This document shows positions 22 through 11,866 of a DNA stretch of 12,417 nucleotides, one piece after another. The notes beneath the pieces were generated by a model, which did no database searches, was not told the DNA's origin, and was given only the letters and a program-made list of their open reading frames with translations. The stretch spans positions 1 through 12,417 of the forward strand of contig JAOUNC010000029.1 in the NCBI GenBank assembly GCA_029881175.1. Direction: 5' to 3'. Position numbers and translations under genes: made by a program. The stretch's first letter is position 1. Each line of letters begins with the position of its first letter. The DNA is from Nitrospirota bacterium (GTDB lineage Bacteria > Nitrospirota > Nitrospiria > Nitrospirales > UBA8639).

Positions 22-377
22 GGTGCATTCTCCCGGCCAGTCCGTCACATTTCTTCCGTTAACCCTTGCCTAACTCTCGGCCGACCCATCCGGTTGAAAA
101 ACACGTCGTATAAATAAAGTCCTTGTTGAAAAAGTGTGAAATTTTTAGTCCCCCTTCACGTTCCATCACGACTGAAGCGCCAGCATCGTCCCGGTCCTTC
201 CCGGTTTGTCCATTTGTCACATTTTCTTTACAGCCTCGCTGAATACCTGAAACCAGTTTGTCATGTTGGGTGTCCACAATGATACCTGATGATGGTTGGC
301 CACCACCATGAGGGTTTATGGAATTCCTGTTCCCGCAACATGTTTTTTTAACAAAACTAACAACATGGAGGTTTCGT
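22..377. other. Intergenic region upstream of the PhoX-like gene
   Basis: This stretch of about 355 bases holds no convincing gene on either strand. The long - strand frame across it runs antisense deep into the PhoX-like gene and has no recognisable protein character. The only regulatory structure I can see is a short Pho-type repeat at 205-232, listed separately. A GGAGG at 367-371 serves the gene that starts at 378. Confidence 0.5.
205..232 (+). promoter_or_regulatory. Weak Pho-box-like repeat
   Basis: GTCACA (216-221) and TTTACA (227-232) lie exactly 11 bases apart and are both of the nTnACA type seen in the stronger arrays of this window. A degenerate third copy, TTTGTC, sits one period upstream at 205-210. 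The hexamer 9 bases downstream (AATACC, 242-247) is a poor -10, and the leader to the start at 378 would be about 125 bases. Only two good half-sites are present, so this is a candidate, supported mostly by the PhoX-like gene it precedes. Confidence 0.4.
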
Positions 378-1983: not shown

Positions 1984-2781
1984 ATGAATTATGGTTTAAC
2001 CGACGATCAGCTTAAGAAATTATTGGAAGTGGCTGTTCAATCCGCGCATGCGGCGGCCACTCCCATTCAAGCGTATTTTGAGCAGCAGGATCTGGGAGTC
2101 AAAGAAAAACGGGATGGATCTCCAGTCACTCAAGCCGACCAAGAGGCCGAGGCCATGATCCGGTCTCATTTACTCTCACATTCCGTGATCGGCCCCCTTG
2201 ATATTCTTGGGGAAGAAGAGGGACTTCAAGGGGAGGGCACACGCTGGCGTTGGATTGTTGACCCCATTGATGGGACGCGTTCCTTCATTCATGGAATTCC
2301 GCTTTTCGGAACCCTTATTGCGTTGCTCGATACCGAAACCAATTTCCCCCTTGTTGGGGTGATTCATCTCCCTATACTTGGCCTGACTTTCGCGGGAGCC
2401 AAAGGGCATGGAGCGACTTGTCAGGGAAAGGTCTTGCGCGTAGCTTCAGACGGGCCACTACAGAGCATGATTATCGCCGTTGGGGATATCGCTCAATTTA
2501 TCAGTGCCAATCGACTCAATGACTATCATCGTTTGATTGCTTTATCTGAATATGTTCGAGGGTATACCGACTGTTTCGGCCACGGGTTGGTGTTAAACGG
2601 GTCTGTTGGCGCGATGTTGGATCCTGCCCTCAATCCTTGGGATATCATGGCCACCCAGGTTCTTATTGAAGAGGCTGGTGGGGCGATGCTCTTGCGTCCT
2701 TCTCAGGTAGTTGGGAAAGTTGATGCCTTGTTTGGCAGTCCAGGACTTGTCGAACACATTGCCAGAGATATCTCTTTCTAG
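1984..2781 (+). CDS. Histidinol-phosphatase-like inositol monophosphatase family enzyme
   Basis: This 265-residue protein belongs to the Mg2+-dependent inositol monophosphatase superfamily, cytoplasmic enzymes that remove phosphate from small phosphate esters. The metal and catalytic motifs are intact: DGSPVTQADQEAE (44-56), GEEEG (76-80), WIVDPIDGTRSF (90-101) and the C-terminal LNPWD (216-220) followed by IEEAGG (228-233). The segment SFIHGIPLFGTLIAL after the DPIDGT motif is typical of the HisN-type histidinol-phosphate phosphatases, so that is my preferred function. Inositol-1-phosphatase or another sugar phosphatase is the alternative. The start at 1984 is preferred over 1909 because the family begins near here and a GAGGGA lies 6-12 bases upstream. 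There are no other histidine genes nearby, so context does not confirm the substrate. Confidence 0.8.
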   Translation: MNYGLTDDQLKKLLEVAVQSAHAAATPIQAYFEQQDLGVKEKRDGSPVTQADQEAEAMIRSHLLSHSVIGPLDILGEEEGLQGEGTRWRWIVDPIDGTRSFIHGIPLFGTLIALLDTETNFPLVGVIHLPILGLTFAGAKGHGATCQGKVLRVASDGPLQSMIIAVGDIAQFISANRLNDYHRLIALSEYVRGYTDCFGHGLVLNGSVGAMLDPALNPWDIMATQVLIEEAGGAMLLRPSQVVGKVDALFGSPGLVEHIARDISF

Positions 2782-2794
2782 TTCCTCCTTCCTT

Positions 2795-2830
2795 CTTTTC
2801 GCTGAAAAGTTCTTAGGCGAAGTTTTTCTT
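2795..2830 (+). terminator. Weak terminator-like hairpin
   Basis: TTCGC (2798-2802) can pair with GCGAA (2817-2821), followed by a run of five T (2823-2827). An alternative small stem, CTTTTC/GAAAAG with a 3-base loop, overlaps it. Both are weak. The position, just after the HisN-like gene and just before the Pho-type array, fits a terminator. Confidence 0.35.
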
Positions 2831-2843
2831 CTCGAATTATTCC

Positions 2844-2893
2844 GTAACTGACACTTTACTTGCTTGTAACATCAGCATAACTGAACCGAAACC
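2844..2893 (+). promoter_or_regulatory. Pho-box array of four to five half-sites
   Basis: Four hexamers occur at an exact 11-base period: GTAACT (2844-2849), TTTACT (2855-2860), GTAACA (2866-2871) and ATAACT (2877-2882). A degenerate fifth, GAAACC, follows at 2888-2893. The 5-base spacers are unrelated to one another, so this is a repeated protein-binding site rather than a simple repeat. Known PhoB (two CTGTCAT-type half-sites, 11-base pitch) and Bacillus PhoP (TTAACA-type, N5 spacers) boxes have this layout. The array faces the response-regulator remnant and ppx. Confidence 0.75.
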
Positions 2894-2902
2894 TTAGCCG
2901 GC

Positions 2903-2908
2903 TAGACT
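2903..2908 (+). promoter_or_regulatory. Candidate -10 element
   Basis: TAGACT matches the TATAAT consensus at four positions and lies 9 bases after the fifth half-site. The same spacing and a similar hexamer (TAGTAT) are seen at the porin promoter in this window. No sigma-70-type -35 is needed in such activator-dependent promoters, where the Pho box takes its place. Confidence 0.5.
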
Positions 2909-2969
2909 GCCCTCTCACGAAGACATTCATTTAAGCTCAAGGGTTTTCGTTCAATCCGTTGCTGACTCT

Positions 2970-3279
2970 ATGCGTGTGCTCAGGCTTGATCCAGAGACCC
3001 GATATTTGCATTTCAGGGATCAAGCCCTTCGACTGACAAAATGAGTATGCGATCTTAACCAAATTTTTGAGCGGCGATGGCGGTTTTGTTGCCCGGCAGG
3101 AACTGTTGGGACTCGTGTGGGGTCTGAAAATCTCTGTTGAGGCTCGAACAGTGGACTCCCATGTAGTGCGCCTGCGGAGAAAGTTGCTGCAATTGGCCGG
3201 GTCGGAAGGCCCGACCATTGAAACGGTCTGGGGTCTGGGGTATCGTGTCAAATGTTCTGGTGAATGTGCTTTCTTGTGA
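2970..3279 (+). pseudogene. Remnant of OmpR/PhoB-type response regulator
   Basis: Only the C-terminal winged-helix DNA-binding domain of an OmpR/PhoB-family response regulator survives, in two frames. Frame one (2970-3044) reads VLRLDPETRYLHFRDQALRLTK and then hits TGA at 3042-3044. Frame two (from 3037) carries NEYAILTKFL, then RQELLGLVWG, TVDSHVVRLRRKL and IETVWGLGYRV up to the stop at 3279. These are the expected beta-sheet, recognition-helix and wing segments in the right order. The join needs two extra bases near the A run at 3038-3041 to give the family spacing LTxxEY. The receiver domain with its phospho-accepting Asp is absent, and a stop at 2895-2897 closes the frame upstream. No ribosome-binding site precedes ATG 2970 or TTG 3067. 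It is most likely a decayed phoB-like gene whose autoregulated promoter persists. A sequencing error could explain the frameshift but not the missing receiver. Confidence 0.75.
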
Positions 3280-3379
3280 TAAAAGTTGCCCTTTTGCAGA
3301 ATGAATCAACAAGCCTAATGTCCGAGAGAAAATCAAATTGTGAGAATGTGAAACCAGACCACCAAGGAGTTCTCAATCG

Positions 3380-4936
3380 ATGAAACGTCTTGCCGTGATT
3401 GATATTGGCACCAACTCCATTCATATGGTGTTAGCAGAAATCGGGAAAAATTTTTCGTATAAAATTGTGGATCGAATTAAGGAGATGGCCAGGTTGGGTG
3501 ATGGGACGTTTACCTCCCATCGGCTTTCCCAAGAGGCCATTGATCGTGGGTTAGCCGTTCTGAAGCGGTTTTCTCTTTTAGCGAAAAATAAAGGGTTTGA
3601 CATCATTCTTCCCGTGGCGACCAGTGCTGTCCGAGAATCCAAGAATGGGGGAGATTTTATCAAGCTGGTTCGAAAAGAAGTGGGGCTGAGGGTGCGAGTG
3701 ATTACCGGAGAAGAAGAAGCTCGGCTCATTTATTTAGGTGTACGGCATAGTATGGATCTGTCCGATTCCCCCGCCATGATTGTAGATATCGGAGGGGGGT
3801 CTGTGGAGCTGATGGCCTGTACGTCGAAACGGCTCAAGTTTTTTCGAAGCTTGAAGCTGGGGGCGATACGGTTGAAGGACCAGTATCTGAAGGCCGATCC
3901 GCCTGACAAAAAAATGGTTCAACGCATGGAACAGGCTGTTTCTCAATCTCTCAAAAAATCCTTGATGCAGAAGAAATCTCTCTCGCTCGCATCGCTGGTG
4001 GCGACATCAGGTATGGCGGGCAATTTGACAGAAATCATTTACTTGGCTCGAACGGGCAGGGCGCTTTCGCAAATTGATATGGCGGTGATTACGCTGGCAG
4101 AGATCAAGGAAGTGGAGCAACTGCTGCGGATCAAAGACATGGAAGGCCGCTTGAAGATTCCGGGTCTGGACCCTCGGCGCGTGGATACCTTGTATCCAGG
4201 TGTGATGGTCCTACGGATGTTGATGGAATGTCTTGGTATGAAGCAGGTACGGATCAGTGATAAGGCGATTCGTGAAGGCGTGATCTATGATTTCATTCAA
4301 CAGCATCACGAAGGGTTAAAGGCTGAGCAGGACATTCCCAATGTGCGTCGCCGACAAGTCCTGTTGCTGGCTCGTCGCTATCAATATTCAAAAGTGCATT
4401 CCCATCATACGGCCAAATTGGCCTTAAGCCTCTTTGATCAAACCCAACCGATTCATGGGATGGGCGAGACCGAGCGGGAATGGTTGGAGTATGCCGCACT
4501 GCTGCATGATATCGGGCATCATATTCAGGAGAGTGAACATCATAAGCATACCTATTATTTGATTACCCATGCTGATTTACCGGGCTTCTCGTTAGATGAA
4601 ATTGGCATCCTGGCAAATGTGGCGCGCTATCATCGGCGAAGTTTGCCAAAAGTTGCCCACCGGGGATTCAAGCTGCTGAATGCCGAACAACGAAAAACGG
4701 TGTTAGGATTGAGCGCCATTCTTCGAATTGCCGATGGGCTGGATCGGAGTCATTTTTCTGTGGTGAAGGCTGTGAAGGTGGTGTTGGGAAAATCCATTCA
4801 GCTTGAAGCCATGTTTCGGTACGATCCAGAATTAGAGTTGTGGACCACTGAACGTAGGAAAAAGCTCTTTGAGAAAATCTACCATTGTTGTGTCGAATTG
4901 AGTGCGTCCGCTGTCACGACAAAAGATGCGGCGTAG
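3380..4936 (+). CDS. ppx: Exopolyphosphatase/pppGpp phosphatase with HD domain
   Basis: This 518-residue protein belongs to the Ppx/GppA family, which hydrolyses terminal phosphate from polyphosphate and/or pppGpp in the cytoplasm. The ASKHA-type phosphatase half is complete: IDIGTNSIH (7-15), ATSAVRES (80-87), GEEEAR (110-115), VDIGGGSVEL (135-144) and KAIREGVIYDF (295-305). The C-terminal half is an HD-type domain with H340, HH at 342-343, LLHDIGHHI (374-382), ARYHRR (415-420) and RIADGLDRSH (449-458). Length and layout match the longer E. coli Ppx type. AAGGAG at 3364-3369 precedes the start by 10 bases. It follows the response-regulator remnant by 100 bases with no obvious terminator or own promoter between, so it is probably read from the Pho-type promoter near 2844-2908. 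Ppx and GppA activities cannot be told apart from sequence alone. Confidence 0.9.
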   Translation: MKRLAVIDIGTNSIHMVLAEIGKNFSYKIVDRIKEMARLGDGTFTSHRLSQEAIDRGLAVLKRFSLLAKNKGFDIILPVATSAVRESKNGGDFIKLVRKEVGLRVRVITGEEEARLIYLGVRHSMDLSDSPAMIVDIGGGSVELMACTSKRLKFFRSLKLGAIRLKDQYLKADPPDKKMVQRMEQAVSQSLKKSLMQKKSLSLASLVATSGMAGNLTEIIYLARTGRALSQIDMAVITLAEIKEVEQLLRIKDMEGRLKIPGLDPRRVDTLYPGVMVLRMLMECLGMKQVRISDKAIREGVIYDFIQQHHEGLKAEQDIPNVRRRQVLLLARRYQYSKVHSHHTAKLALSLFDQTQPIHGMGETEREWLEYAALLHDIGHHIQESEHHKHTYYLITHADLPGFSLDEIGILANVARYHRRSLPKVAHRGFKLLNAEQRKTVLGLSAILRIADGLDRSHFSVVKAVKVVLGKSIQLEAMFRYDPELELWTTERRKKLFEKIYHCCVELSASAVTTKDAA

Positions 4937-10350: not shown

Positions 10351-11736
10351 TTAGAACGAAACGTCCCATTGCAGGCGGATCCGTTGTTCATGTTGATTTT
10401 GACCAGCTGGTTGCGAAAGCGTCAGCCAGGAGCCGTCGAGTGTCAGCTTGTTTTTATGCCCCGCGAAAAACCAATTGAGAACGGTCGTGTATTCCTGCCG
10501 TCTATCATTTGGGGCTGAGATGTTGGGGTCGACGAATGCATAGCGGAAGGCCACTTCCAACGGTTTGGGAACGGTGGGAATGAGATAATGGGGGAAATAC
10601 CCGATTTGTGCATAACTCCCCATCATGTTGGTCTTGTAGCCAGCCATGCCTTGGGAATAATTATTATCTTTGACCTCTTTCCAATGGTATTCATGTTGAA
10701 TGGAGAGTCCCTGCCATTTAAAGGCGAATTCCTCCATCATGCCTTGTACCCGGTATTGTCCGGCGTTAGCGTTAGAATCTGACGTATAGGCCACGCCTGC
10801 CGAATTGTTTTCTGGCAATGTTCCGCATCCACTCGATGACCATCGGGTACATTTGCCAATAGTTGTATAGGCACCAAAGGCCACGCTTCCGGTGGGTTGC
10901 TGATGAAACTCCACGTCACTTTGCGACCATTTTAGATCACGTCCCAAAAAGTTCCATTGGTACCGTCCGAAATACATCATGTTGGCATCGTCATTGGCCT
11001 CGCCACGTCCTGATCCCGTAAACACGCCGGCATAATACCGGGAATCAAAAAATGTTCCAGGGGCCACATGGCCGTACAGCATGGCTCCAACCTGTCGATC
11101 GATGGTAAAGATTTCATTGACGATTGATCGTTCGACAAACTGCTGATTGCCGGAAGAATCTCTCCGTTCACGGTTATAGTCGACTTTCCATTGGCCCACT
11201 TGAAGGGAAAGAAATTTCCATTTTTCGAGGCTGATCCGCCAGTCAATCAATCTTGTACTTCCAGCCGATCCGCCGGAATCGGATGTAGATTGCAAGTCCA
11301 GCTCGAAATAATACTTAATCCAGGGTTGATACCCATGACCGCCGATTTTCAGACGAACCCGTCGAAGTTCAAGTGTACTCTGGCTGGAATTAAAATCTGA
11401 GCTAGATATAGGATCTCCGTTTGTGGGATTTGTAAAACGACCCTGGAACCGCCATTGCATTTGTGTGGCAAATTTTCCATCCGTGGTTGCAAATTCAAAG
11501 CCCTTCTTACCCCAACCGACGGTGACAGGAAATTTCGCCTCAAGTGCTTTTTGTTGTTCTTCCGCTTTTTTCTCTTCTGCCGCCTCAATGCGAACCCAAT
11601 CTTCCATGGTGATAATTTCTTTTTCGCGCAACACATTTGAGAGAGTATCATCATAAAGGGGATCAACAGCCCAGACTTCAGAAAAGGCCAAACATAAAGC
11701 GAAAGTAATAAGCAGGCCTACGAGAGAACTTTTCAT
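10351..11736 (-). CDS. Phosphate-selective porin, OprO/OprP type
   Basis: This 461-residue outer-membrane protein resembles the OprO/OprP family, trimeric beta-barrels that let phosphate or polyphosphate into the periplasm. It has a Sec signal peptide (about 1-23, ending EVWA) and then a charged helical stretch (about 36-68, rich in Glu and Lys) that may form a coiled coil, as in many OprO-like proteins. A long barrel of alternating strands follows, beginning near GFEFATTDGKFATQMQWRFQ and ending in RIRLQWDVSF with the C-terminal Phe required for barrel insertion. The strands LELRRVRLKIGG and YYFELDLQ are typical of the family. AGGAG precedes the ATG by 8-9 bases. It lies 165 bases after pstB on the same strand, behind its own four-half-site Pho array, and has a strong terminator. 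Selectivity for phosphate is inferred from family and context. Confidence 0.85.
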   Translation of the reverse strand: MKSSLVGLLITFALCLAFSEVWAVDPLYDDTLSNVLREKEIITMEDWVRIEAAEEKKAEEQQKALEAKFPVTVGWGKKGFEFATTDGKFATQMQWRFQGRFTNPTNGDPISSSDFNSSQSTLELRRVRLKIGGHGYQPWIKYYFELDLQSTSDSGGSAGSTRLIDWRISLEKWKFLSLQVGQWKVDYNRERRDSSGNQQFVERSIVNEIFTIDRQVGAMLYGHVAPGTFFDSRYYAGVFTGSGRGEANDDANMMYFGRYQWNFLGRDLKWSQSDVEFHQQPTGSVAFGAYTTIGKCTRWSSSGCGTLPENNSAGVAYTSDSNANAGQYRVQGMMEEFAFKWQGLSIQHEYHWKEVKDNNYSQGMAGYKTNMMGSYAQIGYFPHYLIPTVPKPLEVAFRYAFVDPNISAPNDRRQEYTTVLNWFFAGHKNKLTLDGSWLTLSQPAGQNQHEQRIRLQWDVSF

Positions 11737-11812: not shown

Positions 11813-11818
11813 ATACTA
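11813..11818 (-). promoter_or_regulatory. Candidate -10 of the porin promoter
   Basis: On the - strand TAGTAT lies exactly 9 bases after the last half-site of the Pho array and would start RNA about 70 bases before the porin ATG. It matches four of six consensus bases, as does TAGACT at the other strong array. Confidence 0.55.
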
Positions 11819-11827
11819 GGGGAGGTG

Positions 11828-11866
11828 TGTTACGACTGTGTTAAGAACAGGTCAAACTGCCGTAAA
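11828..11866 (-). promoter_or_regulatory. Pho-box array upstream of the porin
   Basis: On the - strand, in reading order, TTTACG (11866-11861), TTGACC (11855-11850), TTAACA (11844-11839) and GTAACA (11833-11828) lie at an exact 11-base period with unrelated 5-base spacers. T at position 2, A at 4 and C at 5 are kept in all four. This matches the PhoP (TTAACA, N5) and PhoB (11-base pitch) box architecture. It lies in the pstB-porin gap, so the porin can be induced separately from the pst operon. Confidence 0.78.

Follow-up and report, generated by a model that had tools for sequence, protein, structure and literature searches.

The stretch of DNA analysed here, which we call the window, is the entire 12,417-b contig C153 of a draft genome (3.07 Mb, 509 contigs, 82% complete); it belongs to g1, which like g2, g9 and g10 is a genus label of our search, and the closest named relatives of its ppx gene are Nitrospirota, Nitrospirales and Nitrospira MAGs. 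Judged from its Pfam content, the contig is a phosphate island: PhoX and an inositol monophosphatase come first, then a repeat array, a broken small gene, Ppx-GppA and PhoU_div, followed by PHO4 (Pit), bactofilin, a histidine phosphatase, PsiE, a CBS protein, an unknown protein, Porin_O_P and the end of an ABC ATPase that is probably pstB. The ppx gene starts 100 bp past the broken gene on the same strand, and no terminator-like site was found in 2700-3500 (Table 1).

Table 1. Positions of the promoter elements and genes discussed, numbered along the window.
Feature	Position	Strand	Description
Predicted Pho-box array	2844..2893	+	GTAAC, TTTAC, GTAAC, ATAAC, degenerate GAAAC, in 11-bp steps
Predicted -10	2903..2908	+	TAGACT, in the register common to 27 of 28 promoters compared
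Broken gene, first part	2970..3044	+	Receiver-less PhoB-type winged helix; 24 codons, then TGA
Broken gene, second part	3037..3279	+	Other frame, stop included; Trans_reg_C positions 8-76
ppx	3380..4936	+	Ppx-GppA family, 518 aa; first intact gene 3' of the array
Second predicted Pho array	11813..11866	-	TTTAC, TTGAC, TTAAC, GTAAC; -10 TAGTAT; before the Porin_O_P gene starting at 11736

A sequence-only reading of this DNA had listed six words here, and all of them, with their positions, matched when the sequence was read directly: GTAACT at 2844-2849, TTTACT at 2855-2860, GTAACA at 2866-2871, ATAACT at 2877-2882, GAAACC at 2888-2893 and, nine bases later, TAGACT. We scored the array with a 5-position matrix built from 21 half-sites ahead of the small gene in relatives (loci L061-L064, L068, L072, L073 and L083), leaving out the repeats from L067 and all window, pstS and oprP arrays. 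The array reaches 16.6, 21.3 and 22.2 bits for three, four and five steps. When the whole window was shuffled 200 times by dinucleotides, the maxima were 16.5, 15.8 and 15.9 bits, and no shuffle equalled any of the three scores. Within the window, 2845 (plus) and 11854-11865 (minus) rank far above all other places, and the top 3- and 4-step scores (16.8 and 23.3) belong to the minus-strand array before the Porin_O_P gene rather than to the one at 2844. No Rfam element was found at gathering score.

Laid out in 11-base blocks, the promoters of pstS and of the small regulator have three canonical steps and then a degenerate fourth, mostly GAAA, GACA or GCAA, whilst the porin promoters mostly have four canonical ones. 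A TAnnnT begins at base five of the block after the array; of 28 promoters, drawn from four genera, 27 share this register and 26 of those 27 have an identical offset, although the 28 are not independent, because orthologous promoters are among them; the exception is the porin of G013. The block reference was moved by hand in four of the 28 rows (the window, and oprP of the window, G025 and G013), which leaves the register modulo 11 unaffected. Four further promoters were laid out and kept out of the count (the winged-helix gene and oprP of G028, and the second upstream pstS arrays of G000 and G029), and on visual inspection each of them shows a TAnnnT in that register. The second array of the window is in register with that at 2844. 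The spaced -10 and the degenerate fifth step that had been proposed from the window recur in relatives. The window promoter matches the common layout with one canonical step added at the far end; this outermost GTAACT at 2844, like which there is none among the other arrays laid out, could be a chance in-register word. A sigma-70 scan of 2700-3500 returned one promoter-like site, at 3218-3246 (9 of 12; shuffle mean 1.0), and neither picked up TAGACT nor found a -35 partner for it.

At 14 bits, 102,787 b of the source genome (the window, and contigs picked because of their regulators and pst genes) contain five clusters in four places: ahead of the broken gene (on both strands), ahead of the porin gene, and two ahead of pstS on contig C471. 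A check for random placement, run on a sample, found no position at 11-bp spacing in 20 further contigs of the source genome (120,748 b) and one in 20 spread 20-kb stretches (400 kb, about 9% of the genome, outside its island) of the closed relative G029. The 27 g1 island loci (357,671 b) hold 45 positions at 11-bp spacing, and 0, 0, 2, 2, 2, 2 and 2 at spacings of 8, 9, 10, 12, 13, 14 and 15, these counts taking in overlapping positions, both strands, orthologues and training loci. Of the 14 genomes searched, 13, the source genome among them, have an array ahead of a pstS (that of G014 has none at 14 bits), and six oprP-type porin genes have one too (window, G013, G025, G028, G029 and G047). 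At the same threshold, none was found before a further pstS-type gene in G029, G034, G036 and G047, or before the oprP-type genes of G011, G021 and the second copy of G028. Twelve genes of the window were tested, and two of them, the broken gene and the porin, are preceded by an array; at 14 bits there is none for phoX (8.6 bits), ppx, PhoU_div, Pit or psiE. The shuffles, the 11-bp spacing peak and the placement before phosphate genes together uphold the original description of the array as Pho-type.

A weak array of 8.6 bits lies before phoX at about 205-240 (plus) of the window; a second array occurs ~350-450 bp further 5' of pstS in several genomes (L075 4062 minus, L114 7585, L127 10586, L128 11793, L130 473); and in G021 (L120 4692) a 14.7-bit array stands ahead of a 792-aa protein, a candidate further Pho target. 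Matches at 14 bits that stand outside the counts are L068 2028, L073 15274, L080 4284 and 8087, L083 13735, L115 6937 and 10466, L120 4692, L124 15738, L126 7282, L127 10586, L128 800 and 11793, L130 473, L131 797, and opposite-strand echoes.

The arrays are reminiscent of several known systems. The PhoP boxes of Bacillus subtilis are TTAACA repeats, and share with the arrays TTAACA-like words at a pitch of about 11 bp, four or more in number. PhoB promoters of E. coli have direct repeats in 11-bp steps in the -35 place, with a TAnnnT -10 ~10 bp on (PMC1906773), which is the arrangement that we find; according to an mBio paper, structural models support a strict distance from the pho box to the core promoter (PMC10294691). 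The E. coli consensus is given as CTGTCAT (PMC4415409), whereas the core of the Nitrospirales-type arrays is T[AT]AC, with three to four canonical steps and often a degenerate last one; since the same review describes a consensus that varies between species, the mismatch leaves the Pho box reading standing. Similar, too, are the cyanobacterial SphR boxes, CTTAACCT, with a TAAC core, an 8-bp unit and a 3-bp linker (11 bp), and at least three steps (PMC1906773), although they belong to another phylum, and the predicted arrays here are tied to a -10 in fixed register. The sequence-only reading had taken the window array to be unusually long: its five steps are there, but more than two half-sites are not unusual, SphR boxes coming at least three together in the account of PMC1906773. 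By its pattern, then, we read the window array as a Pho-box promoter, ordinary in kind and one step longer than those of its relatives. Among the papers listed from an open-access library, none describes a Pho regulon or Pho box of Nitrospira or Nitrospirota, and none fits receiver-less PhoB proteins.

The gene behind the array is indeed broken, as had been claimed, by one frame change: the frame from ATG 2970 encodes the domain start that is absent from the 3037 frame. Its intact relatives encode a PhoB-type winged helix of 103-129 aa that begins at or slightly before the Trans_reg_C domain, too short for a receiver domain, which is absent; the order is array, small regulator, ppx, with a gap of 30-113 bp to ppx. 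A search of 5.8 billion proteins returned 76 relatives, 32 of them exactly 103 aa; as it admits only ~57-180 aa, full-length regulators could not turn up. One of the 76 carries a receiver (P0071); the 13 lowest-scoring ones, with E above 1e-13, could be pieces of unrelated regulators. The second piece in the window scores 264 to this small-protein group and 132 to the PhoB of G029. For an intact copy (G037, residues 1-93), the best solved relatives are 3t72, 1qqi and 1gxp, the DNA-binding domain of E. coli PhoB, at E values of 1.8e-14 to 2.1e-14, a small margin over other OmpR-family domains (7e1d at 3.6e-14); compared with E. coli PhoB, the small gene is a natural gene without the receiver. 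These matches reveal a widespread group of receiver-less, PhoB-type small regulators.

Within g1 the small gene is intact in G034, G036, G037, G046 and at one of two G040 ppx loci, and outside it in G021-G025 (g9) and G028 (g10). It is broken in G000, G029, G030, G035, G038 and G047, and was not found beside ppx in G031, G039, G041, G042, G045 and the other G040 copy; G032, whose contig starts inside the gene, and G017, a short fragment, are partial, and the tally does not take in G033, G043 and G044. On a ppx tree of 22 rows, three changes account for the broken state and three for absence, of which the well-supported branches force at least two and three, respectively. By eye, an integrase/transposase-like frame lies just 5' of the G040 ppx copy with the intact regulator (L061, G040:C212); because it adjoins upstream, this copy may have moved.

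Such an array would suit an autoregulated phoB promoter, as first suggested, and a gene decayed from a full-length phoB. We reject both: the relatives encode 103-129 aa without a receiver, phoB candidates lie elsewhere, and in 10 relatives no array lies inside 600 bp of the best phoB candidate, the highest score being 10.4 bits against a threshold of 14. A TIGR02154 match of 247-268 bits is present in 12 of 14 genomes, and in 10 of those 12 a pstS is found at a distance of 2-8 kb from it; the name PhoB rests on rank and place, because no candidate in any of the 14 passes the curated cut-off. In the 82%-complete source draft the best TIGR02154 match has only 204 bits, and its phoB copy likely sits in the missing part. 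On these comparisons, the true phoB likely lies elsewhere than behind the array.

What, then, does the array go with? It reaches at least 14 bits at 11 of 13 family loci with the small gene in any state, the two exceptions both having a broken gene (G030, 13.6 bits; G029, none), though nine of the 11 array-positive loci are training loci or L067, which leaves the window and G047 as independent cases. At the six g1 ppx copies that lack the small gene, no score above 6.8 bits occurs upstream (1000 bp or less), so that the array belongs with the small gene and not with ppx. A scan of named genomes, covering the 79 of 80 ppx loci with at least 600 bp upstream, agrees: the small gene is present at five, all with an array (three are training loci; L182 and L205 are new), and one of the 74 loci without it has an array (L189, 14.3 bits). 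At several canonical Nitrospira ppx loci (L184-L207) we observe two half-sites, GTAAC-N6-TTAAC, and then a TTGACAG-like -35 within ~250 bp upstream, a different promoter layout that is perhaps phosphate-linked as well. In G013 (g2), which is without the small gene, an array of 14.2 bits with TATCCT in register stands directly before ppx, which makes ppx a credible Pho target for the family; G011, of the same genus, has no array before ppx. For the window array, ppx is plausible as the live target, and is the likeliest remaining target of the promoter.

Taking the evidence together, we think it probable that 2844-2908 is a PhoB-activated Pho-regulon promoter of a Nitrospirales-type bacterium, whose ancestral first gene was the receiver-less regulator, followed by ppx. 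The array, its spacing, the -10 register, the placement before phosphate genes, and the nature and state of the gene are computed. In the mechanism that we infer from them, subunits of phosphorylated PhoB would line up head to tail, each on one 11-bp step, covering the -35 place, and would recruit RNA polymerase to TAGACT in response to phosphate; transcription would start near 2915 and run rightward through the ancestral first gene, the receiver-less winged-helix regulator at 2970-3279, into ppx. Because the small regulator is frame-broken in the assembly, the first intact product would be exopolyphosphatase, behind a leader of about 465 nt; an untranslated leader of ~340 nt could invite Rho-dependent termination before ppx.

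Perhaps the promoter is a relic, which serves nothing and will be lost as in neighbouring species, ppx being transcribed from elsewhere. The array and the small gene do appear and vanish together, the six gene-less g1 ppx copies having none, and the array is weak or gone at two decayed loci. However, the window array is intact and the longest found, and the distant G013, with its array directly before ppx, makes a Pho-controlled ppx credible for the family; we consider the relic unlikely. Nor do we favour, although it deserves some weight, the idea that the frame break arose as an error of assembly or sequencing, in which case the regulator would be alive and the promoter would drive both it and ppx, as in relatives. 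There is a single break, in a draft assembly and beside a short A run, and 40 of 67 differences between the second part and G034 fall at third codon positions; on the other hand, third positions are not clearly in excess in the first part (15 of 36), five other g1 genomes carry independent breaks in the gene, and the contig of the nearest genome, G032, begins only within it.

A further candidate binder, in place of PhoB, would be the receiver-less protein or some other regulator of the OmpR family. The small protein resembles PhoB and, where intact, is always near such an array, but arrays also stand before pstS or oprP-type genes in genomes without an intact regulator (G029, G030, G041, G042, G047 and G013), and we regard this as distinctly improbable. 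A chance run of TNAC words, which half-sites so short and degenerate might invite, is rejected as barely conceivable against the shuffle scores (0 of 200 reach those of the array), the 11-bp spacing peak and the -10 register of 27 of 28 promoters.

Even with PhoB as the activator of this promoter, the small protein may have a role of its own. A PhoB effector domain whose receiver has been removed binds DNA constitutively, according to a review (PMC4415409), and the residues of PhoB that contact bases (Arg201, Thr194, Val197, Arg219) and those for activation (Glu177, Trp184, Gly185, Val190, Glu191, Asp192) are listed in PMC3973317. Aligned with E. coli PhoB, the g1 small proteins keep Thr194, Arg201, Trp184, Gly185, Val190 and Glu191, whereas Val197 is replaced by Ser, Arg219 by Trp, Glu177 by Gln and Asp192 by Val; Arg201 is lost in the small proteins of G025 and G021. 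With Gln for Glu177 and Val for Asp192, and the base contacts Thr194 and Arg201 kept, the g1 protein may therefore occupy boxes without activating; on the alignment, binding without activation is no more than possible, since Asp192 is missing from the genus's own PhoB too. We could speculate, tentatively and with more doubt than conviction, that Nitrospirales-type bacteria have a dedicated, phosphate-induced, receiver-less PhoB domain, expressed from a Pho-box promoter immediately upstream of ppx, which binds Pho boxes unphosphorylated and acts as a feedback brake on the Pho response, coupled to polyphosphate breakdown and lost repeatedly.

The matrix and the promoter layout are usable for the Pho regulon of nitrite-oxidiser-like bacteria, and the array would tie polyphosphate breakdown to that regulon. 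The group of receiver-less regulators is the more interesting part of the finding than the array, and, because it has been lost repeatedly, comparing lineages offers a test of its function; if the brake reading were true, several lineages, that of the window included, would be discarding a built-in Pho brake.
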